Below the pieces are notes generated by a model. The model saw nothing but the letters and a program-made list of their open reading frames with translations. It ran no database searches and was not told where the DNA came from. From an uncultured Chthonomonas sp. (GTDB lineage: Bacteria; Armatimonadota; Chthonomonadetes; Chthonomonadales; CAJBBX01), in the NCBI GenBank assembly GCA_903951425.1, contig CAJBBX010000026.1, forward strand, positions 1-34,173: a stretch of DNA of 34,173 nt, read 5' to 3'. The position numbers were made by a program, and so were the translations under genes. Positions 4,792 to 23,757 of the stretch are shown here, piece after piece. Each line of letters begins with the position of its first letter. Within the stretch, counting starts at the first letter, position 1.

Positions 4792-5133
4792 GTGCCCACT
4801 CCTGAGTGCATCCGATGCGGCTCGACGCAGCCCGTGGCCCTGCGGCGCGCCGGTGCAGCAAGCGCCGAGCCTATCTGCACGGCTTGCCTGCTGATTGCGG
4901 CCCAGTCAGGCTCGGGGACGGCGGAGCGCCTCTTCTTGGCCCTGGCCGACCTGCAGACTGCCTCGGCCGCGCCGCCGCCGGACGAGCCTTGCCCAGCGGC
5001 CTGCCCCGCGTGCGGCATGGACCTATCCGAGATGCTCGACGCCGCCATGGCCGGTTGCCCGGAGTGCTACCGCCACTTCGGGCACATCCTGATACCGCGC
5101 CCGGCACGAACCGGCAGCCGGGTCGGAGCGTGA
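4792..5133 (+). CDS. mcsA: McsA-like zinc-binding protein
   Basis: McsA activates the arginine kinase McsB and acts with ClpC in protein quality control. This 113-residue protein has the McsA-type pattern of four CxxC pairs: CIRC near residue 7, CTAC near 29, CPAC near 68 and CPEC near 87, enough for two zinc sites. It starts at GTG 4792, 27 bases after ilvE, and no better start is visible. It ends in a GTGA overlap with mcsB, so the two are probably translated together. It is shorter than Bacillus McsA (about 185 residues) and lacks a recognisable C-terminal UVR motif, a shortening common outside Firmicutes. The call rests on the cysteine layout and the position between ilvE and mcsB. Confidence 0.82.
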   Translation: MPTPECIRCGSTQPVALRRAGAASAEPICTACLLIAAQSGSGTAERLFLALADLQTASAAPPPDEPCPAACPACGMDLSEMLDAAMAGCPECYRHFGHILIPRPARTGSRVGA

Positions 5134-6203
5134 CATCCCTCCAGCGCGGCCTGGCCGGGCTGGGCCTCCCCTACCCTGCCTGGGCGTCGCAGGCCGGGCC
5201 GAGCCACGACGTCGTGGTTTCGACCCGGTGCCGCGCCGCGCGAAACCTTCAGGGGCTGCCATTCCCGTGGCGATGCTCAGCGCACCAGATCGCCGAGGCG
5301 CAGCAGCGCGTCCGGTCGGCCATGGAGGCCCAGGCGCCCACCCTGATGGCCGGCGGGTGGTTACTCCGAACGAGGACGCCTGCCCGTGAGGTCTCCACGC
5401 TCGTCGAGGCCCGCTACGCCAGCCTGACCTGGGCGAGCCAGGAGGGCTACGGCGCGCTGGCGGTCGATGCTGAGGGCTCCGTGGCGGTCATGGCGCAGGA
5501 GGAGGACCACCTCCGAATCCAGAGCATCCTTCCGGGCCTTCAGGTACAATCTGCCAGGGCGAAGGTGACGCAGGCTGCATTCGATTTGGCTGTACATGCC
5601 CCCTTTGCCTGGTTGCCCGGGTTGGGCTTCCTGACGGCCTCTCCGGCCAATGTCGGAGCCGCGGAGCGAACCAGCGTCCTGCTACACCTGCCGGGGCTGG
5701 AGGGTCTGGACCGGCTGGCAAGCGCCATCAACGCTGCCCGGTGCCTCGGTTGCTCCGTGCGAGGCCTGTTCGGAGAAGGGACGCGAGCTGTGGGAGCGTT
5801 CTTCCAGGTATCGAACTTGCCCGTGGACGCCAACGGCGCGGCGGCGGCAGCGGACCGAGTGCAGGCGGCGGCCGGGCACCTGGTCGATGCGGAGCGCGAC
5901 GCGCGACGTGACCTGTACGGCGCCGATGAGGCTCGCACTGCACTGGCCGCACGGGCCGAAGCGGCCGCCGACGCCGCGTGGAGCGGCACACTGACTGCCG
6001 GCCAGGCGCTGGAAGTCGTCTCCCTCCGTCGCCTGGCGATGGCCGAGCAGGTGGTTGACGGCAGCCTGCCGGAGGCTGGGGCCTGGGTATCCGCGCTAGG
6101 GCTGGTCTGCGCCGTCGCGCAGGGCGCGGCGCCCGTCTGGGAGCGCTACCAGGCGGTGCGGCACACGGCGCTCCTGCGCAGCCTCCTGCGGAAGCCGACG
6201 TGA
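5130..6203 (+). CDS. mcsB: McsB-like protein arginine kinase, with altered active-site residues
   Basis: McsB belongs to the ATP:guanido phosphotransferase family and tags proteins with phosphoarginine for ClpCP. Start: GTG 5130, overlapping the mcsA stop, giving 357 residues (normal). Kept features: STRCRAARNLQG near residue 30, EEDHLRIQ (124-131), PANVGAAERTSV and GLFGEGTRA with FFQVSN. Changed features: the invariant Cys of the Thr-Ala-Cys-Pro-Thr-Asn motif is serine here (Ser171 in TASPAN), the Gly-Thr-Gly-Leu-Arg stretch reads GAAER, and the C-terminal region that normally carries an Arg-Asp-x-x-Arg-Ala-like phosphoarginine pocket reads DAAWSGTL. The fold and context say McsB. Whether it is a slow kinase, an altered one or a pseudokinase adaptor cannot be read from sequence alone. 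Confidence 0.9.
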   Translation: MTSLQRGLAGLGLPYPAWASQAGPSHDVVVSTRCRAARNLQGLPFPWRCSAHQIAEAQQRVRSAMEAQAPTLMAGGWLLRTRTPAREVSTLVEARYASLTWASQEGYGALAVDAEGSVAVMAQEEDHLRIQSILPGLQVQSARAKVTQAAFDLAVHAPFAWLPGLGFLTASPANVGAAERTSVLLHLPGLEGLDRLASAINAARCLGCSVRGLFGEGTRAVGAFFQVSNLPVDANGAAAAADRVQAAAGHLVDAERDARRDLYGADEARTALAARAEAAADAAWSGTLTAGQALEVVSLRRLAMAEQVVDGSLPEAGAWVSALGLVCAVAQGAAPVWERYQAVRHTALLRSLLRKPT

Positions 6204-6312
6204 AATGCGGCAATCGACGAGTCTGCGAGGTCAGGCTGCGTATGACGGAGAGGCAGATGCCGGCATCGGTCCCCAGCATCGGGATTCATAGGAAGTAAGA
6301 GAGGTGCACGCC

Positions 6313-8853
<2,541 letters not shown>

Positions 8854-11053: not shown

Positions 11054-11138
11054 TCCCGCCCTCAGCAGGCGCTATATAGGCCATTTGGGTGCAGAATATG
11101 GGCGCCACTTCCGCTCCAGACCGCCCACGGAGGGACCC

Positions 11139-14100
11139 ATGCCCGTACGCCTCGCCCTGTGCCTGCTCCTCTTCGCCTCGACCGTCGCCGCCACGGCCCA
11201 GGATTCGCGCCTTGAGCCGCTCCTGAACGGCCTCAACTGGCGCGCTATCGGACCCGCGACAGTCGGTGGCCGCATCAACGACGTTTCGGTTGTTGAGACT
11301 GATCCCGCCACGGCCTACGTGGCCTCAGCCTCGGGCGGGCTATGGAAGACCACCAACGCGGGCACCACCTTCAAGCCCGTCGGCGACACGCTACCCACGC
11401 TGACGATCGGCGCCGTGGCCGTGGCCCCCAGCGACCCCAGTGTAGTCTGGGTCGGCACAGGTGAAGCCAACAACCGGCAGAGCTCCAGTTGGGGCTCCGG
11501 CGTCTTCCGCTCTACCGACGGCGGCGAGACCTGGATCGCCCTGGGCCTCGAGGCCACGCACCACATCCAGCGCGTCGTGGTAGACCCCCGCAACGCCGAT
11601 GTGGCATACGTGGCGGCGGTCGGCAAGCTCTGGGGACCGAACCCCGAGCGGGGCCTCTACCGCACGACCGACGGAGGGAAGAGCTGGACCAAGCCGCTCT
11701 ACGTCGATGCGGACACGGGCTGCACGGAGATCGTTCTCGACCCCTCCAACCCGAGCACGCTCTACGCTGCTATGTACCAACGCCGCCGGACCGCTTACGG
11801 CTTCACCGGAGCGGGACCGGGTAGCGGCCTCTTCAAGTCCACCGACGCGGGCGCCACCTGGACGAAGCTGGAGGCGGGTCTGCCCAAGGGCCCCCTGGGC
11901 CGCATCGGCCTGGCCGTGAGCCGCAAGGCGCCGCAGACAGTCTACGCGACCGTGGAGGCGAACGAGGGCGGCGTCTACCGGTCCGATGACAGCGGAGCCA
12001 CCTGGCGCCGCATGTCCGAGACCAACCCGCGGCCCATGTACTTCAGCCAGATCCGCGTGGACCCGAACGACACCGAGAAGCTCTGGCTGGCGGGCGTTTC
12101 ATTCGCTAGTTCCAGCGACGGCGGCAAGACCTGGCGCAGCGAATCGAGCGCCCGCATCCACGCCGACATCCACGCGATCTGGATCGACCCGCGCGACTCG
12201 CGCCACCTGCTCGTTGGCTGCGACGGCGGCCTCCATTGGAGCCATGACGGCGGCAAGACCTACGACATGATCGCCACACTGCCGCTCTCGCAGTTCTATG
12301 GCGTGGGGTTCGACTTCTCCAAGCCCTACCGCGTAGCGGGCGGCCTGCAGGATAACGGCTCCTGGATCGGGCCCAGCAGTTCCCGCAACACGGCAGGCAT
12401 CGGCAATGCCGACTGGAAGAACCTGAACGGCGGCGACGGCTTCCAGGCCGCGCTGGACCCGACCGATCCGTCGGTCGTCTACGTCGAGTCCCAGAACGGC
12501 AACGCCGTCCGCGTGAACCCCTTCACCGGCGAGAGCCGCTCCGTGCGACCGCGGGCCGAGGGCGGTGAGGCCCTGCGATTCGACTGGAACACGCCGATCC
12601 TGATCTCGCCTCACAATCCCAGGCGGCTCTACATCGGCGGCAACCGGCTCTTCATCTCGGATGACCGCGGCGCCTCCTGGCGGCGAACCGGCGACCTGAC
12701 GACCCAGCCCGACCTGAAGAAGATGCCGATCATGGGCCAGACCTACGGGACGAAGGGCTACCCGTTCCAGGACATCCCGTCGGACTACGGCCAGATCGTG
12801 ACGCTGACTGAGTCGCCCTGCGAGCGCGGCGTCATCTACGCGGGCACGGACGACGGCAACCTTCAGGTCTCGCGCGATGACGGGAAGAGCTGGGCCAACG
12901 TGGCGGGCCGCGTGCCGGGGCTTCGCGCCGGCGCCTATGTGAGCAAGGTTCACGCCTCGCCGCACGCCCGGGGCCGCGTCTATGCCTCGTTCGACAATCA
13001 CCGATCCGGCGACTTCACGGCCTACGCCTACGTCAGCGACGACTACGGCGCGACCTGGCGCTCCATCGGCGCCGGGCTTACGCCGGACACCACGGTGAGC
13101 GTGGTGCGCGACCACCCGCGCAACCCCGACGTGCTCTTCATGGGCACCGAGCGGGGCGCATGGGTCTCCATCGACCGAGGCGCCCGCTGGACCCGCTTCC
13201 CCGCCCCGTTGCCGGCGCTCCGCGTCGACGACCTGCAGGTCCATCCGCGCGACAACGACCTGATCCTGGCCACCCACGCCCGAGGCATCTGGATACTCGA
13301 CGACATTGCCGCGCTGGAGCAGGCCGCCGTAGCCGCGTCGGCGCCGGTGTTCAAGCTGCTCACACCCAAGCCGGCGATCACCTACCGGATGTCGTTCAGC
13401 CAGTTCGGCGCGGGCAACCGGGTCTTTGCCGGACCCAACGCCCCACAGGCCGGCATGATCCGCTATGTGGTCGGCAAGGGCTACGACGGCAAGGGCCCCG
13501 AGGAGATGCGCATCACCACCCGGAAGGGCGAACTGGTGCGCAAGATGACGCTGATCCCCACCGAGGCAGGCCTCAACCGCGTGACCTGGGACCTGCGGTG
13601 GGCGGCGGCGGCGGTGGAGGGAGCGACGCAGCGCAGGGCTCCGGTCGCCGCACCGGCCCGGCCCGCCGCAGGGCAGGCGCGACAGGCGCAGGGCCGCCGC
13701 ACACAGGGCTCCGGCGCACGCACCTACGGCTCGACGCGCGGACCGCGCGTGCTGCCCGGCGCCTACGTCGTCCACCTCCGGCTCGGCGCCGAGGAGCAGA
13801 CGGCCGAAATCACGGTGGAGGACGACCCGTTCGTCAGCGCGTCGACGGCCGACCGGAGACGCCACTTCGAGGCCATCCGGGACCTGTCGCTGGCGGCCGC
13901 GCAGGCCTCCTACGCGGGCAGTGTCAGCACGCGACTCACCGCTCCGCTCAAGGCGCTGAAGGAGGGCGAGGCATTCAAGACGGCGCCGGAGGCCCAGCGC
14001 AAGGCGGTCGCGGCGTACGACGCCGCCCTGACGGCGCTAACGGCCGGGCTGCGCGACCAGGCCCCGGCAGAGGCCGACCGCCCCGGTGAGGGCGAGGCTC

Positions 14101-14402
14101 CAGCGCGGCCTGCTCCCGGCGCGGTAGCTCCGACGATCGGCAGCCGCGTCTCGCAGCTCTCCAGCGCCATCGACGCCTTTACCGAGACGCCGGTCCGCTC
14201 GCACCTCGAGCAGGCACGGACCCTCACGGCCCGCGCCTCGGCGCTCTACCGTTCGGCACGACGCCTGGCAGGTCCTGACCTGGAGCGGCTGAACAAGCTG
14301 CTGGCCGCGGCCAAGCTGCCGCCCCTGCAGCCCGCACAGGATGACTTCGCGGCGGCGGGAGGCGACGGGTTCGTGGCGGAGGAGGTCGGCGAGGCCGAGT
14401 AG
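11139..14402 (+). CDS. Exported BNR/VPS10-type beta-propeller protein
   Basis: A 1087-residue exported protein of the sortilin/VPS10-like, BNR-repeat family often annotated as a glycosyl hydrolase. It has a signal peptide (MPVRLALCLLLFASTVAATAQ) and WRAIGPATVGGRI, the usual opening. About eleven Asp-box-like repeats follow across residues 60-720, such as STDGGETW, TTDGGKSW, STDAGATW, SSDGGKTW, SDDRGASW and SDDYGATW, consistent with one or two propellers. ATHARGIWILDD ends the propeller part. The C-terminal part has the GLNRVTWDLRW and VLPGAYVVHLRLG beta-sandwich segments, interrupted by a low-complexity Ala/Arg/Gln linker near residue 850, then a helical tail. ATG 11139 is chosen for its GGAGGG site and signal peptide. 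No sialidase-type catalytic set is recognisable, so a binding or peptidase-associated role is as likely as hydrolysis. Confidence 0.88.
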   Translation: MPVRLALCLLLFASTVAATAQDSRLEPLLNGLNWRAIGPATVGGRINDVSVVETDPATAYVASASGGLWKTTNAGTTFKPVGDTLPTLTIGAVAVAPSDPSVVWVGTGEANNRQSSSWGSGVFRSTDGGETWIALGLEATHHIQRVVVDPRNADVAYVAAVGKLWGPNPERGLYRTTDGGKSWTKPLYVDADTGCTEIVLDPSNPSTLYAAMYQRRRTAYGFTGAGPGSGLFKSTDAGATWTKLEAGLPKGPLGRIGLAVSRKAPQTVYATVEANEGGVYRSDDSGATWRRMSETNPRPMYFSQIRVDPNDTEKLWLAGVSFASSSDGGKTWRSESSARIHADIHAIWIDPRDSRHLLVGCDGGLHWSHDGGKTYDMIATLPLSQFYGVGFDFSKPYRVAGGLQDNGSWIGPSSSRNTAGIGNADWKNLNGGDGFQAALDPTDPSVVYVESQNGNAVRVNPFTGESRSVRPRAEGGEALRFDWNTPILISPHNPRRLYIGGNRLFISDDRGASWRRTGDLTTQPDLKKMPIMGQTYGTKGYPFQDIPSDYGQIVTLTESPCERGVIYAGTDDGNLQVSRDDGKSWANVAGRVPGLRAGAYVSKVHASPHARGRVYASFDNHRSGDFTAYAYVSDDYGATWRSIGAGLTPDTTVSVVRDHPRNPDVLFMGTERGAWVSIDRGARWTRFPAPLPALRVDDLQVHPRDNDLILATHARGIWILDDIAALEQAAVAASAPVFKLLTPKPAITYRMSFSQFGAGNRVFAGPNAPQAGMIRYVVGKGYDGKGPEEMRITTRKGELVRKMTLIPTEAGLNRVTWDLRWAAAAVEGATQRRAPVAAPARPAAGQARQAQGRRTQGSGARTYGSTRGPRVLPGAYVVHLRLGAEEQTAEITVEDDPFVSASTADRRRHFEAIRDLSLAAAQASYAGSVSTRLTAPLKALKEGEAFKTAPEAQRKAVAAYDAALTALTAGLRDQAPAEADRPGEGEAPARPAPGAVAPTIGSRVSQLSSAIDAFTETPVRSHLEQARTLTARASALYRSARRLAGPDLERLNKLLAAAKLPPLQPAQDDFAAAGGDGFVAEEVGEAE

Positions 14403-14481
14403 GCAGTCCGCTCCAGCCCATACGGGCCAACATGGGGCGTCTCGGCAGGAGCCGGGGCGCCCCGCGGCGTATCTTGGCGGC

Positions 14482-16626
14482 ATGAGACACTTACTTACTG
14501 CGGCCCTCGCCGCGGCAGCGCTACAGACCACGGGGAGCCTCACCATGGACGATCCGCTCCAGATCAGAGAGCGCACCTGCTTCCAGACCGGAAGCGCCTA
14601 CACCGACGCCGCCAACCTGCGCTCCGACGTGGCCATCTGCTACGGGATCGACCCCGGCCTGCCCGCGCGGATCGCCACGTGGCGCGAGCGCGGCTACCGC
14701 ATCCATGTGATGACCGGCGTCTCGTGGGGGCAGTACCAGGACTACCTCTACGGCCGCTTCGACGGCGAGAACCACGAGGACCAGGCGCAAACCGACCGCG
14801 CGGGCAACAAGATCAGCCACGGCGGCGATGTCTACTATATGTGCCCCGGCGAGACCTACGGCAAGTTCCTCTGCGTTGGCGTGAAGCGAGCGCTGGAGGC
14901 CGGAGCCGAGGCGATCCACCTGGAGGAGCCCGAGTTCTGGGTGCGCGGCGGCTACTCCGAGGGCTTCAAGCGCGAGTGGCAGTCCTACTACAAGGAGCCG
15001 TGGCAGGCGCCCCACGCCAGCCCGGACGCCCAGTGGCGCGCCTCCAAGCTGAAGTACTACCTCTACCGCCGGGCGCTTCAGCAGGTATTCAGCTTTATCC
15101 AGGCCTGGAACAAGGAGCACGGCAAGAAGGTGCGCTGCTACGTGCCCACGCACAGCCTCATCAACTACGCGCACTGGCGCATCGTCAGCCCCGAGAGCAG
15201 CCTGGCGCGGATCGAGGGTTGCGACGGCTACATCGCGCAGGTATGGACCGGCACGGCGCGCACCGCCACCATGTATCGCGGCAAGCGCAAGGAGCGGACC
15301 TTCGAGGCGGCCTTCCTCGAGTACGGCTCGATGCAGAACCTGGTCCGCGCCACGAACCGGACGGTCTGGTACCTGAACGACCCGGTTGAGGACAACCCCG
15401 GCTACGACTGGGCCGACTACAAGGTGAACTGGGAGTCGACGCTCACCGCCTCGCTCCTGCAGCCCGAGGTCTGGCAGTACGAGGTCGCCCCGTGGCCCGA
15501 GCGCGTCTTCAGCGGCCGGTACCCCAGCAAGGCCGACCGGAACGTCCGCGAGGCAATCCCGGCCGGCTACGCCACCGAGCTGCAGACCGTCTTCTCGGCG
15601 CTCAACGACATGGATCAGAAGCTCGTGAAGTGGGAGTGCGGAACGCAGGGCATCGGCGTCGCCGTCAGCGACACGCTCATGTTCCAGCGCGGCGACCCCA
15701 AGCCCAGCGACCCGCACCTCTCCAACTTCTACGGGCTGGCGATGCCGTTCGTGAAGCGCGGCATCCCGGTGGAACCGGTCCAACTCGAGAACGCGACCAT
15801 CCCCGGCTGCCTGGACCGGTTGCGCGTGATGCTCCTCACCTACCACGGGCAGAAGCCGCCGACGCCGGAGATCCACACCGCCCTCGCCGAGTGGGTGCGC
15901 AAGGGCGGCGCGTTGGTGGTCTGGGACGACGACAGCGACCCCTTCAACGCTGTCCGCGAGTGGTGGAACTCTGACGGCAAGGCCTACGCCACACCCAGGC
16001 TCCACCTCTTCGAGGCGTTGGGCCTGCCGGCAGACGCCGCCGAGGGCACGCACCGTGTCGGCAAGGGCGTGGTGGTCTACCGCGCGGCGAGCCCGTCGGC
16101 TCCCGCCTACGCAGCCGCGGGCGACGCCGACGTGGTGGCCGTGGTGCGGAAGGCCGCCTCCGCCGTGCGGCTGCGCTGGCGCGAGACGAACCACCTCGTG
16201 CTGCGGCGCGGGCCTTACGTCGTGGCGGCGGGCCTCGACGAGACGATCGATGGCGCGCCCCGGACGTTGGAAGGGCGGCTGGTCGACCTCTTCGACCCGC
16301 AACTCGCCCTGCGCCGGAAGGTGATGCTGAAGCCGGGGGCGCGCCACCTGCTCTACGACCTCGACGCCTCTGCCGGCACAGGGCTCAAGCTTGTGGCGGC
16401 GGGCTGCAAGGCCCTGCCGGAGAAGGTCGGCCTGCGCGGTGGGACGTGGCTCGTGGAGGGCATCGCGCAGACGCAGGGCGTTGTCCTGCTCCGCTGCCCG
16501 AGCCGACCGGCGTCGGTCGCGCTGGGGTCGGACCCATCCGAGTGGCGGTACGACGCCAAAGAGCGGCTGCTCTGGGTGGCCTTCGCCAACACGGCGCGTC
16601 CGCGCAAACTGCAGGTGGAGCTCTAG
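14482..16626 (+). CDS. Exported TIM-barrel / amidotransferase-like protein, putative glycoside hydrolase
   Basis: A 714-residue protein with a short signal peptide (MRHLLTAALAAAALQT). Residues 40-400 look like a TIM barrel of the kind in beta-galactosidase-like enzymes: YRIHVMTGVSWGQY, AIHLEEPEFW (Glu148, Glu149, Glu151 as possible acid/base), VRCYVPTHSLINYA, YIAQVWTG and WYLNDPVED. Residues 415-495 resemble the class I amidotransferase-like trimerisation domain: FYGLAMPFVKRGIPVEPVQLE ends a strand-helix, then RVMLLTYHGQKPP, LAEWVRKGGALVVWDDDSDP. A beta-sandwich tail follows. ATG 14482 is preferred to the longer open frame because it starts the signal peptide. It lies 79 bases after the propeller gene and 9 bases before the fusion gene, so it is probably co-transcribed with the latter. 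Substrate unknown; no GH family number can be assigned by eye. Confidence 0.75.
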   Translation: MRHLLTAALAAAALQTTGSLTMDDPLQIRERTCFQTGSAYTDAANLRSDVAICYGIDPGLPARIATWRERGYRIHVMTGVSWGQYQDYLYGRFDGENHEDQAQTDRAGNKISHGGDVYYMCPGETYGKFLCVGVKRALEAGAEAIHLEEPEFWVRGGYSEGFKREWQSYYKEPWQAPHASPDAQWRASKLKYYLYRRALQQVFSFIQAWNKEHGKKVRCYVPTHSLINYAHWRIVSPESSLARIEGCDGYIAQVWTGTARTATMYRGKRKERTFEAAFLEYGSMQNLVRATNRTVWYLNDPVEDNPGYDWADYKVNWESTLTASLLQPEVWQYEVAPWPERVFSGRYPSKADRNVREAIPAGYATELQTVFSALNDMDQKLVKWECGTQGIGVAVSDTLMFQRGDPKPSDPHLSNFYGLAMPFVKRGIPVEPVQLENATIPGCLDRLRVMLLTYHGQKPPTPEIHTALAEWVRKGGALVVWDDDSDPFNAVREWWNSDGKAYATPRLHLFEALGLPADAAEGTHRVGKGVVVYRAASPSAPAYAAAGDADVVAVVRKAASAVRLRWRETNHLVLRRGPYVVAAGLDETIDGAPRTLEGRLVDLFDPQLALRRKVMLKPGARHLLYDLDASAGTGLKLVAAGCKALPEKVGLRGGTWLVEGIAQTQGVVLLRCPSRPASVALGSDPSEWRYDAKERLLWVAFANTARPRKLQVEL

Positions 16627-16635
16627 CGCGCCCGG

Positions 16636-19600
16636 ATGAAGCCATCGCGCCTCGGAACACATCGGGTGGCCAGGGCGGCAGCCTGCCTGGCCGCCCTGGC
16701 CCCGTTGCTGCTGCTCGGGGGCATGAGCCGCCGGCAGGATCCGCCACGACTCCCGGCCACGGGGCAGGCCGACTTCAGCATGACGGCCTTGATACGCACC
16801 ACGCAAGGCGGCGTCATCGTCTCGCGGTCGGCGCAGTCTGGCCCGTGGGCCTGCGGTGGCAAGGCCTGGTTCGTCCGGAACGGCGTACTGGGCTTCGACA
16901 CGGGCTGCATCGCGGTGGTTGCCGGACGCATGCCGGTGGCCGACGGCCAGTGGCGCCGGGTGGGCGTGGCCTACTCCCACGCGGCCTCCACGGCGACCTT
17001 CTACATCGACGGCCGCCTCGATGCGCAGGTGAGCCTCGGGAGCAACCCCGACGTGGAGGGCGATATCCTGCGTCTGGGCGCCGCCGCGCAGGGGCTTGCC
17101 GGGCCCAACGGCTTCGTGGGCGACCTCGACGAGGTGGCGCTCTACTCCCGCGCCCTGAGCCCGGAGGAAATGGCCCGCACTGACCTGCCGCAGCCGGACG
17201 CGCTCTGGACGCTGGACGGCTCGGGTGCCGACGTATCGGGCAAGCACGCCCTGCAGGTGCGCGGAGGCACGTTTGTGCCGGGCATGCGCGGCCGCGCCCT
17301 GCACTGCGACGGCGCCACCGAGGCGGCCGATATCGACCCGCTGGACGAGGCCCGCGCCCGCTTCGCGCTGGTGAACCTGGGCGCGGCGCGACTGGCCGTG
17401 GCGGACATGCGGAAGGAGTTCGGCGCGCGCCTGCCCGGCGGCGACGCCATGGCGGCCAGGCTCGCCGAGGCAGAGCGGAGCGCCCGGTCGGTCGCGGCAC
17501 GCCTCGCCAGGGGCGACGCAGATCTGCTCCCTGAGATCGAGCGGCTCCTGGCCCTGCAGCGCTCGGCCCTGCTCGCCAATCCTTTGCTGGACTGCGACAA
17601 GCTCCTGCTCGTCCGGCGCGGCGCGGGCAACCTGGGCCTCGTGCAGAACTGGGAAAGCAACTCGTCACTGCCGCGGTCGGGCTTCGACAACGAGGTCGCC
17701 ATCCTCACCGGCCTGCGTGGCGAACCCAAGCTCACCACGCTCTACAAGCCCGACGGCGGGCGCTTCGTGGGCGACCTCGACCTCCATTGGGACGCCCGGC
17801 GGCTCCTCTTCTCCATGCCCGGCGAGGACGGCCGCTGGCAGGTGTTCGAGAAGCGCTTGGACGGAACGCCGGCGGCGCAACTCGGGCTCATCGACCAGCC
17901 ACTGGTCGACAACTACGACGCCTGCTACCTACCCGACGGCGACGTGCTCTTCACCTCCACGGCGCCCTTCGTGGGGGTCCCCTGCGTCACCGGCGCGTCG
18001 CACGTCTCCAACATCTACCGCACCGAGAAGGGCCGCATCCGGCGCCTGACCTTCGAGCAGGACCACGACTGGTGCCCCACCGTGATGGCCGACGGCCGCA
18101 TCCTCTACCTGCGGTGGGAATATACCGACATCCCCCACTTCGCGTCGCGCATCCTCTTCACCATGAACCCGGACGGCACGCAGCAGGCGGCCCACTACGG
18201 CAGCAACTCCTACTGGCCCAACGCGCTCTTCTACGCCCGGACCATACCGGGGAATGCGACGCAGTTCGCCGCCATCGTGGGAGGGCACCACGACGTGCCA
18301 CGCATGGGAGAGCTGACGCTCTTCGACACCGCCCTGGGCCGCCACGAGGCCGCTGGAGCCGTGCAGCGCATACCCGGCCGGGGCAAGAGTGTCGTTCCCA
18401 TCATCCGCGACGAGTTGGTGGCGCCGAGTTGGCCCAAGTTCCTCCACCCCTGGCCGCTCAGCGCCAGGTACTTCCTCGTGGCGGCCAAGCCCACGCCCGC
18501 CTCGTCGTGGGGCATCTACCTGGCCGACGTGTTCGACAACCTGACGCTGATCGCCGAGGCGCCCGGCAGCGCACTGCTGGAGCCGATCCCCGTGGAGCGC
18601 AGGCCCGTGCCGCCGGCCATCCCTGCGCGGACCCGCCCCGGAGCCGCCGAGGCCGACGTGAGCATCACCGATATCTACCGTGGCCCCGGTTTGGCCGGCG
18701 TGCCGCGCGGAACCGTGACGCAACTGCGGCTCTTCAGCTACCAGTTCGCCTACCACGGCATGGGCGGGCAGATCAACCGAGTCGGGCTCGACGGGCCGTG
18801 GGACGTCAAGCGCATCCTGGGCACCGTGCCCGTAGCGCCCGACGGCTCGGCTCACTTCACCGTCCCGGCCAACACGCCTATTTCCATGCAGCCGCTGGAC
18901 GCCGAGGGCAAGGCCCTGCAACTCATGCGGAGCTGGATGACCGCCATGCCCGGCGAGCGGGTCCACTGCACCGGGTGCCATGAGCCGCAGAACGCAGCGG
19001 GCATCAACCGCCCCGCCGGGCGCGCATACCAGGCTCCGGACAAGATACGCCCCTGGTACGGCCCTGCGCGGGGTTTCAGCTTCCGGCGCGAGGTGCAGCC
19101 TGTCCTGGACCGCTACTGCGTGAGCTGCCACGACGGGCGGCCGGGGACCTCGGCGCCCAACCTGGCGGACGCTCCGGACGTCAGCGCGCCGGGGTCCGAC
19201 GCCGGATACCGCGGCGGCTCGCACTTCCCGCCCTCCTACCTGGCCCTGCGCTCCCATGTCCGGGGCCACACCATCGAGAGCGACCTGCACCTGCTGACGC
19301 CCGGCGAGTTCCACGCCGACACCACGCGGCTCGTACGGATGCTACAAGGCGGCCACGCGGGCGTCAGGCTGAGCCGCGAGGCGTGGGACCGGATCATCAC
19401 GTGGATTGACCTGAACACGCCCGCCCACGGCTCCTGGCGCGAGATCGTAGGCGACGGCAAGGTGAACGCCCAGCGCGCCCTGCGCCGCCGTATGGACGCC
19501 CTCTATGCCGGCGCCGACCTCGACCCCGAGGCCGATGCCGACCTGCCGCGGGCGATCCTCGACCGGAACAGCGCGGCGAGCGCCTTGGCAGCTCCGAGCC

Positions 19601-20376
19601 GGGCTTCTGCGCCACTGAGGAGGCCCACGGCCATGGCGGCGCGGCCGGTGCGCGTCTCGGCGGGGCCGGGGCTTGTGTTGGACATGGTGCGGCTGACGCC
19701 CGCCGGAGGGCGCGGCGCGTTCCTCATCGGCGCCTGCGAGGTCACCAACGCCCAGTACGCGGCCTTTGACCCGCGCCACGACAGCCGCCTCGAGACCGGG
19801 GACTTCCTGCAGTTCGCCGAGCGCGAGCGGGGCTACCCGGTGAACGGCCCCGCACAGCCGGTCTGCCGGGTCTCTTGGGACGAGGCGCAGGCCTTCTGCC
19901 GCCGGATCAGCACACGGACCGGCAAGCGGTGGCGGCTCCCCACGCGGTCGGAATGGGAGGCCGCCTGCCTGGCCGGAGCTCGGACGCCCCTGGCCTGGGG
20001 CGCTTCCGACGCCGACTTCGGGCGGCTGGCCAACCTGGCCGACGCCACGCTGGGCCGGGTCGATACCTTCGGCTGGGGCCTCCCGTCGGGCGCAATCTCG
20101 CCCTACCGGCGCGTTGCTGCAGCCGTCGACGACGGCCACCGCGTGACGGCGCCCGTGCGGTCCTACCGGCCCAATGCGTGGGGCCTATACGACATGCATG
20201 GCAACGTGGCCGAGTGGCTGCAGGAGGCGCTGCCCGGCCCCGGTGGAGGGCGGCTCGTGACCGGCGGATCGTGGAGCGACCTGCCCGAGGAGGCCCGCAT
20301 CGGCGCCACACGACGCCACCCCCGGTGGCAACGCGTCTTCGACGTGGGCTTCCGCGTCGTCTGTGAAAACCCCTAG
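16636..20376 (+). CDS. LamG - hydrazine-synthase-alpha-like - dihaem cytochrome c - FGE-sulfatase fusion protein
   Basis: A 1246-residue exported protein. Signal/anchor: residues 1-30 (ACLAALAPLLLLGG). LamG-like lectin domain: about 45-170 (WFVRNGVLGFD, ADGQWRRVGVAY, ATFYIDG, GDLDEVALYSRALSPEE). A helical spacer follows. HZS-alpha-like propeller: about 325-760, with DNYDACYLPDGDVLFTST, DHDWCPTVMADGRILYLRWE (Cys480) and YQFAYHGMGG. Two c-type haem sites: C778-T-G-C-H782 and C828-V-S-C-H832. FGE/SUMF1-like domain: about 1010-1246 (EVTNAQYAAF, RVSWDEAQAFC, WRLPTRSEWEAAC, GLYDMHGNVAEWL, VTGGSWSDLPEEARIG, GFRVVC). The catalytic Cys pair of true formylglycine generators is missing after GGSW, so that domain is probably structural or ligand binding. 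Haem attachment would place the protein outside the cytoplasm. It is 9 bases after the TIM-barrel gene. Confidence 0.88.
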   Translation: MKPSRLGTHRVARAAACLAALAPLLLLGGMSRRQDPPRLPATGQADFSMTALIRTTQGGVIVSRSAQSGPWACGGKAWFVRNGVLGFDTGCIAVVAGRMPVADGQWRRVGVAYSHAASTATFYIDGRLDAQVSLGSNPDVEGDILRLGAAAQGLAGPNGFVGDLDEVALYSRALSPEEMARTDLPQPDALWTLDGSGADVSGKHALQVRGGTFVPGMRGRALHCDGATEAADIDPLDEARARFALVNLGAARLAVADMRKEFGARLPGGDAMAARLAEAERSARSVAARLARGDADLLPEIERLLALQRSALLANPLLDCDKLLLVRRGAGNLGLVQNWESNSSLPRSGFDNEVAILTGLRGEPKLTTLYKPDGGRFVGDLDLHWDARRLLFSMPGEDGRWQVFEKRLDGTPAAQLGLIDQPLVDNYDACYLPDGDVLFTSTAPFVGVPCVTGASHVSNIYRTEKGRIRRLTFEQDHDWCPTVMADGRILYLRWEYTDIPHFASRILFTMNPDGTQQAAHYGSNSYWPNALFYARTIPGNATQFAAIVGGHHDVPRMGELTLFDTALGRHEAAGAVQRIPGRGKSVVPIIRDELVAPSWPKFLHPWPLSARYFLVAAKPTPASSWGIYLADVFDNLTLIAEAPGSALLEPIPVERRPVPPAIPARTRPGAAEADVSITDIYRGPGLAGVPRGTVTQLRLFSYQFAYHGMGGQINRVGLDGPWDVKRILGTVPVAPDGSAHFTVPANTPISMQPLDAEGKALQLMRSWMTAMPGERVHCTGCHEPQNAAGINRPAGRAYQAPDKIRPWYGPARGFSFRREVQPVLDRYCVSCHDGRPGTSAPNLADAPDVSAPGSDAGYRGGSHFPPSYLALRSHVRGHTIESDLHLLTPGEFHADTTRLVRMLQGGHAGVRLSREAWDRIITWIDLNTPAHGSWREIVGDGKVNAQRALRRRMDALYAGADLDPEADADLPRAILDRNSAASALAAPSRASAPLRRPTAMAARPVRVSAGPGLVLDMVRLTPAGGRGAFLIGACEVTNAQYAAFDPRHDSRLETGDFLQFAERERGYPVNGPAQPVCRVSWDEAQAFCRRISTRTGKRWRLPTRSEWEAACLAGARTPLAWGASDADFGRLANLADATLGRVDTFGWGLPSGAISPYRRVAAAVDDGHRVTAPVRSYRPNAWGLYDMHGNVAEWLQEALPGPGGGRLVTGGSWSDLPEEARIGATRRHPRWQRVFDVGFRVVCENP

Positions 20377-20412: not shown

Positions 20413-21429
20413 ATGATGACATCACGAGAGCGGGTACTGCGCACGCTGGAGCTTCGATCGCCGGACAGGGCGCCGAGGCAGCTCTGGCTCCTCCCCTGGG
20501 CCGTCGATCACCACCCCGAGGCGCTGGATGCCTTGCGTCGTGACTTCCCCGACGACCTCAGCGGCGTCTCCGGCCACTGGAGCGAGCTGCCCGCTACGTC
20601 AGGCAATCCCTACGAGATCGGCACCTACGTCGACGACTGGGGCAGCATCTTCACGAACATCCAGAAGGGCGTCGTCGGCGAGGTGAAGGACCCGCTCATC
20701 GCCGACTGGCGGACCGACGTGCCCAAGGTGCACATCCCCACCGAGTGGCTGACCGTGGACCGGGACCTGATCAACCGCGACTGCGCCGCCACCACCGCGT
20801 TCACCATGGCCGGCGCATGCCCGAGGCCGTTCGAGCAGCTACAGTTCCTGCGCGGCACCGAAAACCTCTATATCGACCTGATGGAGCGGCCCGCCGAGAT
20901 GGTGGGCTTCCTGGGCGCCATGCACAACTACTACTGCGACCTGCTGGAGGCCTGGGCCGCCACCGACGTGGACGCGCTGATGATGATGGACGACTGGGGC
21001 ACCCAGCGCACGCTCCTGCTGAGCCCGAAGCTCTGGCGCGCCGTCTTCAAGCCGCTCTACCGCGACTACATCGAGATCGCCCACCGGGCTGGCAAGAAGA
21101 TGTTCATGCACTCCGACGGCCACATCCTGAGCGTTATCCCCGACCTGATCGAGTTGGGACTCGACGCGGTGAACTCCCAGGTCTTCTGCATGGGCATCGA
21201 GAACCTGGCGCCCTACGCGGGCAAGATCACCTTCTGGGGCGAGGTCGACCGCCAGCACCTGCTGCCCTCAGCCACCACCATGGAGATCGACGCCGCCGTC
21301 CGCACGGTCCACCAAGCGCTCTGGCGCAACGGAGGCTGCATAGCGCAGTGCGAGTTCGGAGCAGGCGCCCGGCCGGAGAACGTGCGGCAGGTCTTCGACA
21401 CCTGGGACCAGGTAACGATGGAAGTGTGA
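20413..21429 (+). CDS. Uroporphyrinogen decarboxylase-like (UROD/MtaA superfamily) protein, paralog 2
   Basis: A 338-residue UROD-fold protein, distinct from the paralog at 1361-2530. It begins MMTSRERVLRTLELRSPDRAPRQ, the shared superfamily start, and contains ALMMMDDWGTQRTLLLSP, KMFMHSDGHILSVIPDLIELGLDAVNSQ (His233-Ser-Asp-Gly), TFWGEVDRQHLLP and a C-terminal GARPENVRQVF. The His-Ser-Asp-Gly matches the place of the metal-binding His in methylcobamide methyltransferases, while paralog 1 has Asp-Cys-Asp-Gly there, so the two probably handle different substrates. AGGAG lies about 9 bases before ATG 20413; ATG 20416 is an equal possibility. It follows the fusion gene by 36 bases and is probably the last gene of that transcript. 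Substrate unknown. Confidence 0.88.
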   Translation: MMTSRERVLRTLELRSPDRAPRQLWLLPWAVDHHPEALDALRRDFPDDLSGVSGHWSELPATSGNPYEIGTYVDDWGSIFTNIQKGVVGEVKDPLIADWRTDVPKVHIPTEWLTVDRDLINRDCAATTAFTMAGACPRPFEQLQFLRGTENLYIDLMERPAEMVGFLGAMHNYYCDLLEAWAATDVDALMMMDDWGTQRTLLLSPKLWRAVFKPLYRDYIEIAHRAGKKMFMHSDGHILSVIPDLIELGLDAVNSQVFCMGIENLAPYAGKITFWGEVDRQHLLPSATTMEIDAAVRTVHQALWRNGGCIAQCEFGAGARPENVRQVFDTWDQVTMEV

Positions 21430-23029: not shown

Positions 23030-23593
23030 AGTCCCAGTAGGCCCGCACAGGTCCGGCCGCCGCGCTTCCAGCGGCCCGGGGCGCCGCTCTCGTACCAATC
23101 CCCGCACTACTCCCAGACGTTCCCGCTCATCTGCCGCAGGCCCCAGGGGCTGATGCCCTCCGGGTACGACCAGACCGAACAGCTCTCTTTCGAACCCTCG
23201 TTTTTGCTGTTCCTGCACCGCTTGCCGTCTTCCCAGACGTCGCCCCACGGGTAGACGCGGCCGTCCGGGCCCCGGGCGCCCTTCCCCCACTCCAGCTCGC
23301 TCGGCAGTCGCAGGCCGGCCCAGGCGCAGTAGGCGGACGCATCGTCCCAGGTGACGCACACGACGGCGCGGTCCGACTTGGCGGCCGGCGAAAGGCCTTG
23401 CCGGCCCAGACCGGCTTGCCGAAGGTCGCCTGGTCCGGCGGACGGTGGCCTGTTGCGTCGACGAAACGCTTGTACTGCGCGTTCGTCACCGGCGTGACCG
23501 CGATGTAGTAGGCGGGAAGGGTCACAGAAAGCCCTTGCCGTCGCCCGCGAGGAACTCGGCGGGGAACCCTGCGGCAAGGCGAAGGAACGGCAT
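23030..23593 (-). pseudogene. Decayed FGE-sulfatase (SUMF1-domain) gene
   Basis: On the minus strand the pieces of one SUMF1-type protein lie in order but in three different frames. The first is [16 protein letters not shown] (frame from ATG 23593). Next comes [22 protein letters not shown], with the frame change near 23530. Then follows [20 protein letters not shown] with [15 protein letters not shown] and [13 protein letters not shown], after a second change near 23390. The last frame reaches MSGNVWE and then TAG at 23109-23107, where the family has Trp (GNVWEWC, TGG), and continues CGDWYESGAPGRWKRG before it is lost. Two frameshifts plus a nonsense change make this a pseudogene; sequencing error could explain one but hardly all. 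It is abutted upstream by REP-like repeats. A related but intact domain ends the fusion protein at 20376. Confidence 0.85.
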
Positions 23594-23610
23594 AGGTGGT
23601 CGTGACCGGG

Positions 23611-23665
23611 CTCCTTCCCCTTGCGAGGCGTAGCCTCGGAGGGGGAAGGCCGGGATGGGGGTTGC
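23611..23665 (+). repeat. REP-like hairpin, copy 1
   Basis: Arms 23613-23629 and 23633-23649 pair at 16 of 17 positions (one G-T pair, one mismatch) around a GTA loop, followed by a G-rich tail. It matches the second copy, at 23705-23757, in inverted orientation. Confidence 0.65.
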
Positions 23666-23704
23666 CGGAGGGACAGCACATAACGGCAACTCGTGCCAAA
23701 CGGC

Positions 23705-23757
23705 AAGGACCCCTACCCCAACCCTCCCCCTCCCGCTACGCGGAAAGGGGAGGGAGC
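23705..23757 (-). repeat. REP-like hairpin, copy 2 (inverted)
   Basis: Arms 23722-23736 and 23740-23754 pair around a TAC loop with two mismatches. Read on the minus strand it follows the same order as copy 1: a C-rich arm, a GC-GTA-GC centre, a G-rich arm, then a G-rich tail. Together the copies form a head-to-head pair typical of REP/BIME elements. Confidence 0.65.

Follow-up and report, generated by a model that had tools for sequence, protein, structure and literature searches.

A gene of an uncultured Chthonomonas sp. (Armatimonadota) was found to encode a protein in which the whole fold of the alpha subunit of hydrazine synthase (HZS), with both of its haem c sites, is joined to a LamG domain and to a domain resembling formylglycine-generating enzyme (FGE). 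The gene lies at positions 16636-20376 of a 34,173-nucleotide stretch of contig CAJBBX010000026.1 (assembly GCA_903951425.1); this whole stretch is called the window below. The protein lacks the zinc-haem signature of HZS and has invariant residues of its own. The combination of HZS-alpha-like and FGE-like parts is the fixed architecture of one clade across seven phyla, which is heavily duplicated and is linked, both statistically and by an operon, to a beta-gamma-like fusion protein. We propose, with a probability of about 0.5, that the window protein is exported and docked on glycans, and that it is a dihaem subunit of an HZS-like oxidoreductase in the periplasm whose substrates derive from carbohydrates.

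The gene is a single open reading frame translated into 1246 residues, and its product is divided as follows.

16636-20376, plus strand: gene for the exported LamG, HZS-alpha-like dihaem, FGE-like protein (open reading frame, Pfam; the core architecture is shared by orthologs)
16636-16725, plus strand: Sec-type signal peptide, about residues 1-30, with no lipobox seen (by-eye reading of the sequence)
16909-17169, plus strand: LamG_3 concanavalin-like domain, residues 92-178, a module swapped among orthologs (Pfam)
17590-19455, plus strand: HZS-alpha-like fold (propeller, middle domain and cytochrome c part), residues 319-940 (VIA-align, Foldseek, profile)
18709-18984, plus strand: PF18582 HZS_alpha middle domain, residues 692-783 (Pfam, genome-wide PF18582 search)
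19717-20361, plus strand: FGE-like domain (PvdO/Tvp1/FGE fold), residues 1028-1242, lacking the catalytic Cys pair of FGE (Pfam, VIA-align)

Reading frame, by-eye Sec signal and Pfam matches agree with the initial annotation, which had described an exported chain with lectin-like, HZS-alpha-like and FGE-like domains. In Pfam, LamG_3 was matched with an E-value of 2.3e-13, FGE-sulfatase with 1.2e-30 and HZS_alpha with 4e-30, the last at 104.7 bits, above its gathering cut-off of 26.6 bits. Against the hydrazine_alpha equivalog model of NCBIfam (NF052339), the score was 41.1 bits for a cut-off of 800. The window protein is therefore related to HzsA, yet is not HzsA. Haem attachment is plausible because genes for cytochrome c assembly proteins are present in the source genome.

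An AlphaFold2 model of residues 48-1246, built from an alignment of 68 orthologs, reached a pLDDT of 82.5 and a pTM of 0.81. The core was mostly above 90, and the first 184 residues of the model, including LamG, were mostly below 50. The top match of this model in the PDB was the alpha subunit of Kuenenia hydrazine synthase (5c2v_A, Foldseek E 3.6e-25). VIA-align superposed 555 residues on 5c2v_D with a Z score of 32.4 and a root mean square deviation of 2.9 A; the aligned range, residues 272-893 of the model on 55-802 of HZS, covers the propeller, the middle domain and both haem sites. TolB propellers ranked next, at about Z 25. Profile comparisons gave the same result, with E 3e-35 for the family profile against 5c2v_A and E 5.6e-26 for hhalign against HZS-alpha. 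The structural match that the initial annotation had looked for in residues 325-760 is therefore present and extends over the whole subunit, and an HZS-alpha-fold dihaem protein, as had been proposed, does occur in a bacterium outside the anammox group. The window protein thus shares with HzsA (PDB 5C2V; NF052339; PF18582) the fold of the whole subunit, the middle domain and both haem c positions. It differs from HzsA in its added LamG and FGE-like domains, in its many paralogs and in being encoded outside an hzsABC operon.

Residues were mapped in an alignment of 129 sequences, comprising 117 non-anammox relatives and 12 authentic HZS-alpha sequences from anammox genomes. HZS numbering is the 5c2v index plus 27, which reproduces C303 and C583-H587, and ortholog conservation was counted over 68 complete orthologs. 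The positions concerned are the following.

17983-17985, plus strand: Cys450, invariant propeller cysteine (ortholog and relative counts)
18073-18075, plus strand: Cys480 of DHDWCPT, not equivalent to HZS Cys303 (129-sequence alignment)
18205-18207, plus strand: Asn524, position of HZS Cys303 (N in 71 relatives, G in 24, S in 7; no Cys among the common residues)
18289-18291, plus strand: His552, invariant, in the propeller (ortholog and relative counts)
18967-18981, plus strand: first haem c site CTGCH, residues 778-782, corresponding to HZS haem alpha-I (129-sequence alignment)
18991-18993, plus strand: Asn786, position of HZS Tyr591 (N, S, R, T and G common in the 117 relatives, Tyr not among them)
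19117-19131, plus strand: second haem c site CVSCH, residues 828-832, corresponding to HZS haem alpha-II (129-sequence alignment)
19354-19356, plus strand: His907, likely distal ligand of haem alpha-II (conservation; alignment beside HZS His772)

The two CxxCH sites, already recognised in the initial annotation and starting at residues 778 and 828, are kept in all 129 sequences (117/117 relatives and 12/12 HZS-alpha). Two other ligands of HzsA are missing from the window protein. The zinc ligand Cys303 is replaced by Asn524, and the haem ligand Tyr591, which is Tyr in 12/12 HZS-alpha, by Asn786. Cys303 is variable within anammox bacteria too, since only 5 of the 12 aligned HZS-alpha have a Cys there, and this variability has been reported by Hagglund et al. 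2025 (PMC12758564). Cys480 had been suggested to lie at the zinc-haem site. This can be ruled out, because Cys303 falls on Asn524 whereas Cys480 aligns with HZS Asp257, an Asp in 12/12 HZS-alpha, and because Cys480 is retained in only 44/68 orthologs and 51/117 non-HZS relatives.

Cys450 is found in 68/68 orthologs and in 115 of the 117 non-HZS relatives, the other two being gapped, although the alignment to HZS around it is unreliable. His552 is present in 68/68 orthologs and 114/117 relatives, at a position occupied by Met, Ser or Asn in HZS-alpha. By their conservation in the aligned sequences, these two residues are signatures of the non-anammox family. His907 (68/68 orthologs, 113/117 relatives) is at most one residue away from HZS His772 by hhalign and in the alignment; it is likely the distal ligand of haem alpha-II, a ligand that would then probably be shared with HzsA. 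In all, the residues invariant in the 68 orthologs are both haem sites, C450, H501, H552 and H907, together with H1048 and C1088 in the FGE region.

The C-terminal domain adopts the fold of Treponema variable protein 1 (Tvp1), PvdO, CarF and FGE (PF03781), with VIA-align Z scores of 20-26 (25.9 for 2y3c, 24.8 for PvdO and about 20 for FGE). As first described, it is devoid of the catalytic Cys pair of FGE: after the GGSW motif, an Asp fills the first catalytic Cys position. Its role is probably binding or docking. Hypothetical proteins of Microcystis phages MaMV (for instance PP681324 32879-33412) also match this domain, with 35% identity and E 1e-14. In a Pfam scan of 35 orthologs, PF18582 and FGE were found together in every one (35/35); the N-terminal modules varied, with LamG in 4, NPCBM in 3, F5/8C in 2 and CBM6 in 1.

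At least 544 relatives were recovered in a scan of contigs with one genome per species. In the tree, the FGE-type clade has a support of 99-100 and includes Armatimonadota, Planctomycetota, Verrucomicrobiota, Lentisphaerota, Kiritimatiellota, Hydrogenedentota and Bacteroidota; rows marked 'other' within it are copies of this type that carried no label, or copies whose FGE status was unchecked. The HZS-alpha sequences group apart, in a single long-branched clade (in a quick tree whose root was not inferred). The source genome encodes 18 PF18582 proteins, of which 3 (the window gene and its paralogs C60 and C63) are of the FGE type. Among the genomes reached via ortholog loci, the median is 15 PF18582 copies per genome and the maximum at least 79; this lower bound comes from G301, G323 and G334 (the genomes of loci L073, L104 and L128).

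The window gene had been described as having no HZS partners. This is correct within the window, where no HzsB- or HzsC-like gene was found and hzsB and hzsC thus do not form an operon with the window gene; across the whole genome, the HzsB and HzsC models have their best hits on other contigs. It is not correct for the genome, which holds one beta-gamma-like fusion, nor for some loci of the family and the Bacteroidota operon described below. The only clear beta-gamma gene of the source genome (C115:102680-104617) encodes 645 residues, with CxxCH at 449 and 559. Like the HZS beta-gamma fusion of the Scalindua type (NF052342), its product is one chain with a propeller and a dihaem CCP/MauG-like part, but it scores 118 bits against NF052342, whose cut-off is 1250. 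It matches the hydrazine_BC fusion model with E 2.9e-34, and the beta and gamma models as well. The profile of the beta-gamma family finds HZS beta (E 3e-44) and then HZS gamma (E 1e-33), in this order. The modelled propeller has HZS beta as its top PDB match (TMt 0.86); only this part of the model was used because the haem part was poor, with pLDDT mostly below 50. The gene is encoded away from the window gene, directly upstream of another alpha paralog (C115_106693) and on the same strand.

Beta-gamma-like genes were present in the fetched flanks of 10/80 FGE-type ortholog loci, versus about 0.36 expected from genome density. A survey of 61 Armatimonadota genomes gave long beta-gamma hits in 11/12 alpha-positive versus 4/49 alpha-negative genomes (p 3.6e-8, with a length filter picked after the data had been inspected), and a plain E cut-off gave 11/12 versus 16/49 (p 2.6e-4); both p-values are optimistic because related genomes are not independent. 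The beta-gamma-like fusion is likely to be the partner of the alpha-FGE protein.

In gut Bacteroidota, the two genes belong to one operon. In Parabacteroides distasonis (NZ_OY725748) the order is IclR, beta-gamma, chorismatase-like, a 252-residue protein, alpha-FGE, CcsA/ResB, a 104-residue protein, DhaK, DhaL, LsrF and WD40-like. The beta-gamma protein matches hydrazine_BC with E 2.6e-28, and the alpha-FGE protein shares about 43% identity with that of the window. The gene order is identical in genome G686 (the two operons are at L143:6375-21421 and in L145, G686:C2), and in Aureibacter the gene set is divided between two plasmids. NZ_OY725748 is labelled as a plasmid ('plasmid 3') and is possibly chromosomal, since it carries mfd. 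The NCBI name of the alpha-FGE protein, 'SUMF1/EgtB/PvdO family nonheme iron enzyme', gives no hint of its haem part. It is tempting to speculate that the operon encodes a breakdown route resembling that of 4,5-dihydroxypentane-2,3-dione and autoinducer-2 (DPD/AI-2), with a DhaKL kinase, an isomerase and an LsrF thiolase. This stays speculation because the 104-residue protein gene between CcsA and DhaK, glyoxalase-like by eye, has no Pfam or PDB match. Literature searches on 'HzsA-related protein', on DhaK/LsrF in Bacteroides and on FGE-cytochrome fusions returned nothing relevant.

In the model that we propose, the LamG and FGE-like domains would dock the protein to a glycan or to the cell surface. 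Haem I (His782; candidate partners Cys450 and His552) would be the redox site, and haem II (His832 and probably His907) would relay electrons. The alpha-FGE protein would pair with the separately encoded beta-gamma-like protein, with its propeller and CCP/MauG-like dihaem part, to form the periplasmic oxidoreductase; in the source genome, many alpha proteins may have to share a single beta-gamma gene. The link to sugars or to the cell surface, raised in the initial annotation, finds circumstantial support in the interchangeable LamG, NPCBM, F5/8C and CBM6 modules and in the carbohydrate-active neighbours of the paralogs. Alpha paralogs of the source genome adjoin a sulfatase (L014), GH127 enzymes (L012, L015) and a SASA acetylesterase (L021), and the L011 paralog adjoins a 3-keto-disaccharide hydrolase and a GH42-like protein; these neighbours were chosen by eye as likely carbohydrate genes, without a background rate.

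Several observations argue against this model. The available flanks of 70/80 ortholog loci contain no beta-gamma gene, and no beta-gamma hit was obtained anywhere in 5/49 ortholog genomes. The source genome has 18 alpha-like genes for one clear beta-gamma gene, which stands beside another alpha paralog and not near the window gene. Carbohydrate-active genes abound in genomes of this kind. Finally, we infer the complex and its substrate, as well as the reaction direction and the docking, and the geometry of the haem ligands is presumed from aligned residues.

The window protein could alternatively carry electrons or act as an adhesin at the surface without being catalytic; it would then be a dihaem wire or scaffold anchored to glycans, and any chemistry would fall to other enzymes. 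This is possible, if somewhat unlikely. Its sugar-binding modules, the FGE-like domain deprived of its Cys pair, a second haem that is probably bis-His and the high copy number without matching beta-gamma copies would all fit such a role, but the near-invariance of Cys450 and His552 in the propeller points to a site that has been retained and to more than a scaffold, and the operon linkage to a CCP/MauG-like protein also speaks against it. A different role for that protein, as a MauG-like maturase that modifies alpha-FGE, which then acts alone, seems to us quite improbable: the beta-gamma protein does score against the MauG and MbnH families, and the gene is sometimes adjacent to alpha and sometimes elsewhere, but its propeller best matches HZS beta, the structural partner of alpha in HZS, and no modification site is known.

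Two further activities were considered. Nitrogen chemistry of the hydrazine synthase type would be in line with the shared overall fold, the two haems and the homologous beta-gamma proteins. However, judged from its sequence, the window protein is not a hydrazine synthase, as Tyr591 and Cys303 are missing from it and from its relatives, the equivalog score is 41 bits instead of 800 and the hzsB and hzsC genes are not in its operon; such chemistry, against which PMC12758564 also concluded for other homologs, is hardly credible. Scarcely more probable is a role as formylglycine-generating enzyme or as sulfatase activator, with the cytochrome module as an incidental addition. The FGE-sulfatase match and the sulfatase genes near some copies would agree with this, but the Asp at the first catalytic Cys position does not, and Treponema Tvp1 and PvdO, neither of them an FGE, are among the closest structural matches.

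To our knowledge, hydrazine synthase was until recently believed to have no relatives, and its origin is an open question. Distant homologs of HZS-alpha and of beta-gamma, co-located and with key residues lost, were described outside anammox bacteria in December 2025 (PMC12758564), where the alpha homologs were called few. These homologs (clades I-IV) also keep haem alpha-I and have lost Tyr591 and Cys303, and some of them adjoin beta-gamma-like genes, as in the window family; His772 is lost in clade I, whereas the window family keeps a His there. FGE, SUMF1, LamG, Armatimonadota and large copy numbers are all absent from the main text of that paper. According to the available literature, what appears new is the FGE-fused subfamily with sugar modules, how extensively it is duplicated, the residues invariant within it and the operon in Bacteroidota.

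A family with the alpha fold, a linked beta-gamma homolog and an operon in gut Bacteroidota makes ancestral HZS chemistry testable in genetically tractable bacteria. These data also correct database names: 'HZS_alpha' implies hydrazine chemistry and 'SUMF1/EgtB/PvdO' iron enzymes, for what is probably one redox family. More tentatively, and with considerable doubt, one may imagine a widespread, very heavily duplicated HZS-like superfamily acting on carbohydrates, with many glycan-docking alpha proteins and few shared beta-gamma redox cores, from which anammox HZS would be a specialised offshoot of older sugar-linked machinery.

The immediate neighbours of the window gene are the following.

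14341-16626, plus strand: upstream gene, separated from the start of the window gene by 9 bp, called TIM-barrel-like in the initial annotation (weak DUF4350 Pfam match, below the cut-off)
20413-21429, plus strand: URO-D-family gene, 36 bp downstream of the stop (Pfam E 3.1e-12)

The TIM-barrel-like gene, for which a PDB search for a solved relative returned only spurious hits, is 91% conserved in the sister species (L062) and only there. The VPS10 and URO-D neighbours are likewise retained at the locus only in this species. The TIM-barrel neighbour thus says little on function, and both it and the URO-D gene were dropped as functional clues.

Other genes were noted in passing. Next to the FGE-type paralog C63, the source genome encodes a 1176-residue protein (L012:4787-8314) with an N-terminal FGE domain and weak PcRGLX and GH127-like matches. 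Within the window, a McsB-like protein arginine kinase gene (4806-6203) adjoins a ClpB/ClpC-like AAA chaperone gene (6304-8853). The VPS10/BNR propeller protein (11085-14402, 1105 residues), with a possible FlgD-Ig domain, scores 169 bits against the F510_1955 glycosylhydrolase model, the cut-off of which is 175. On the minus strand, short overlapping reading frames with FGE-like text (23107-23706) are perhaps a frameshifted small FGE-like gene.

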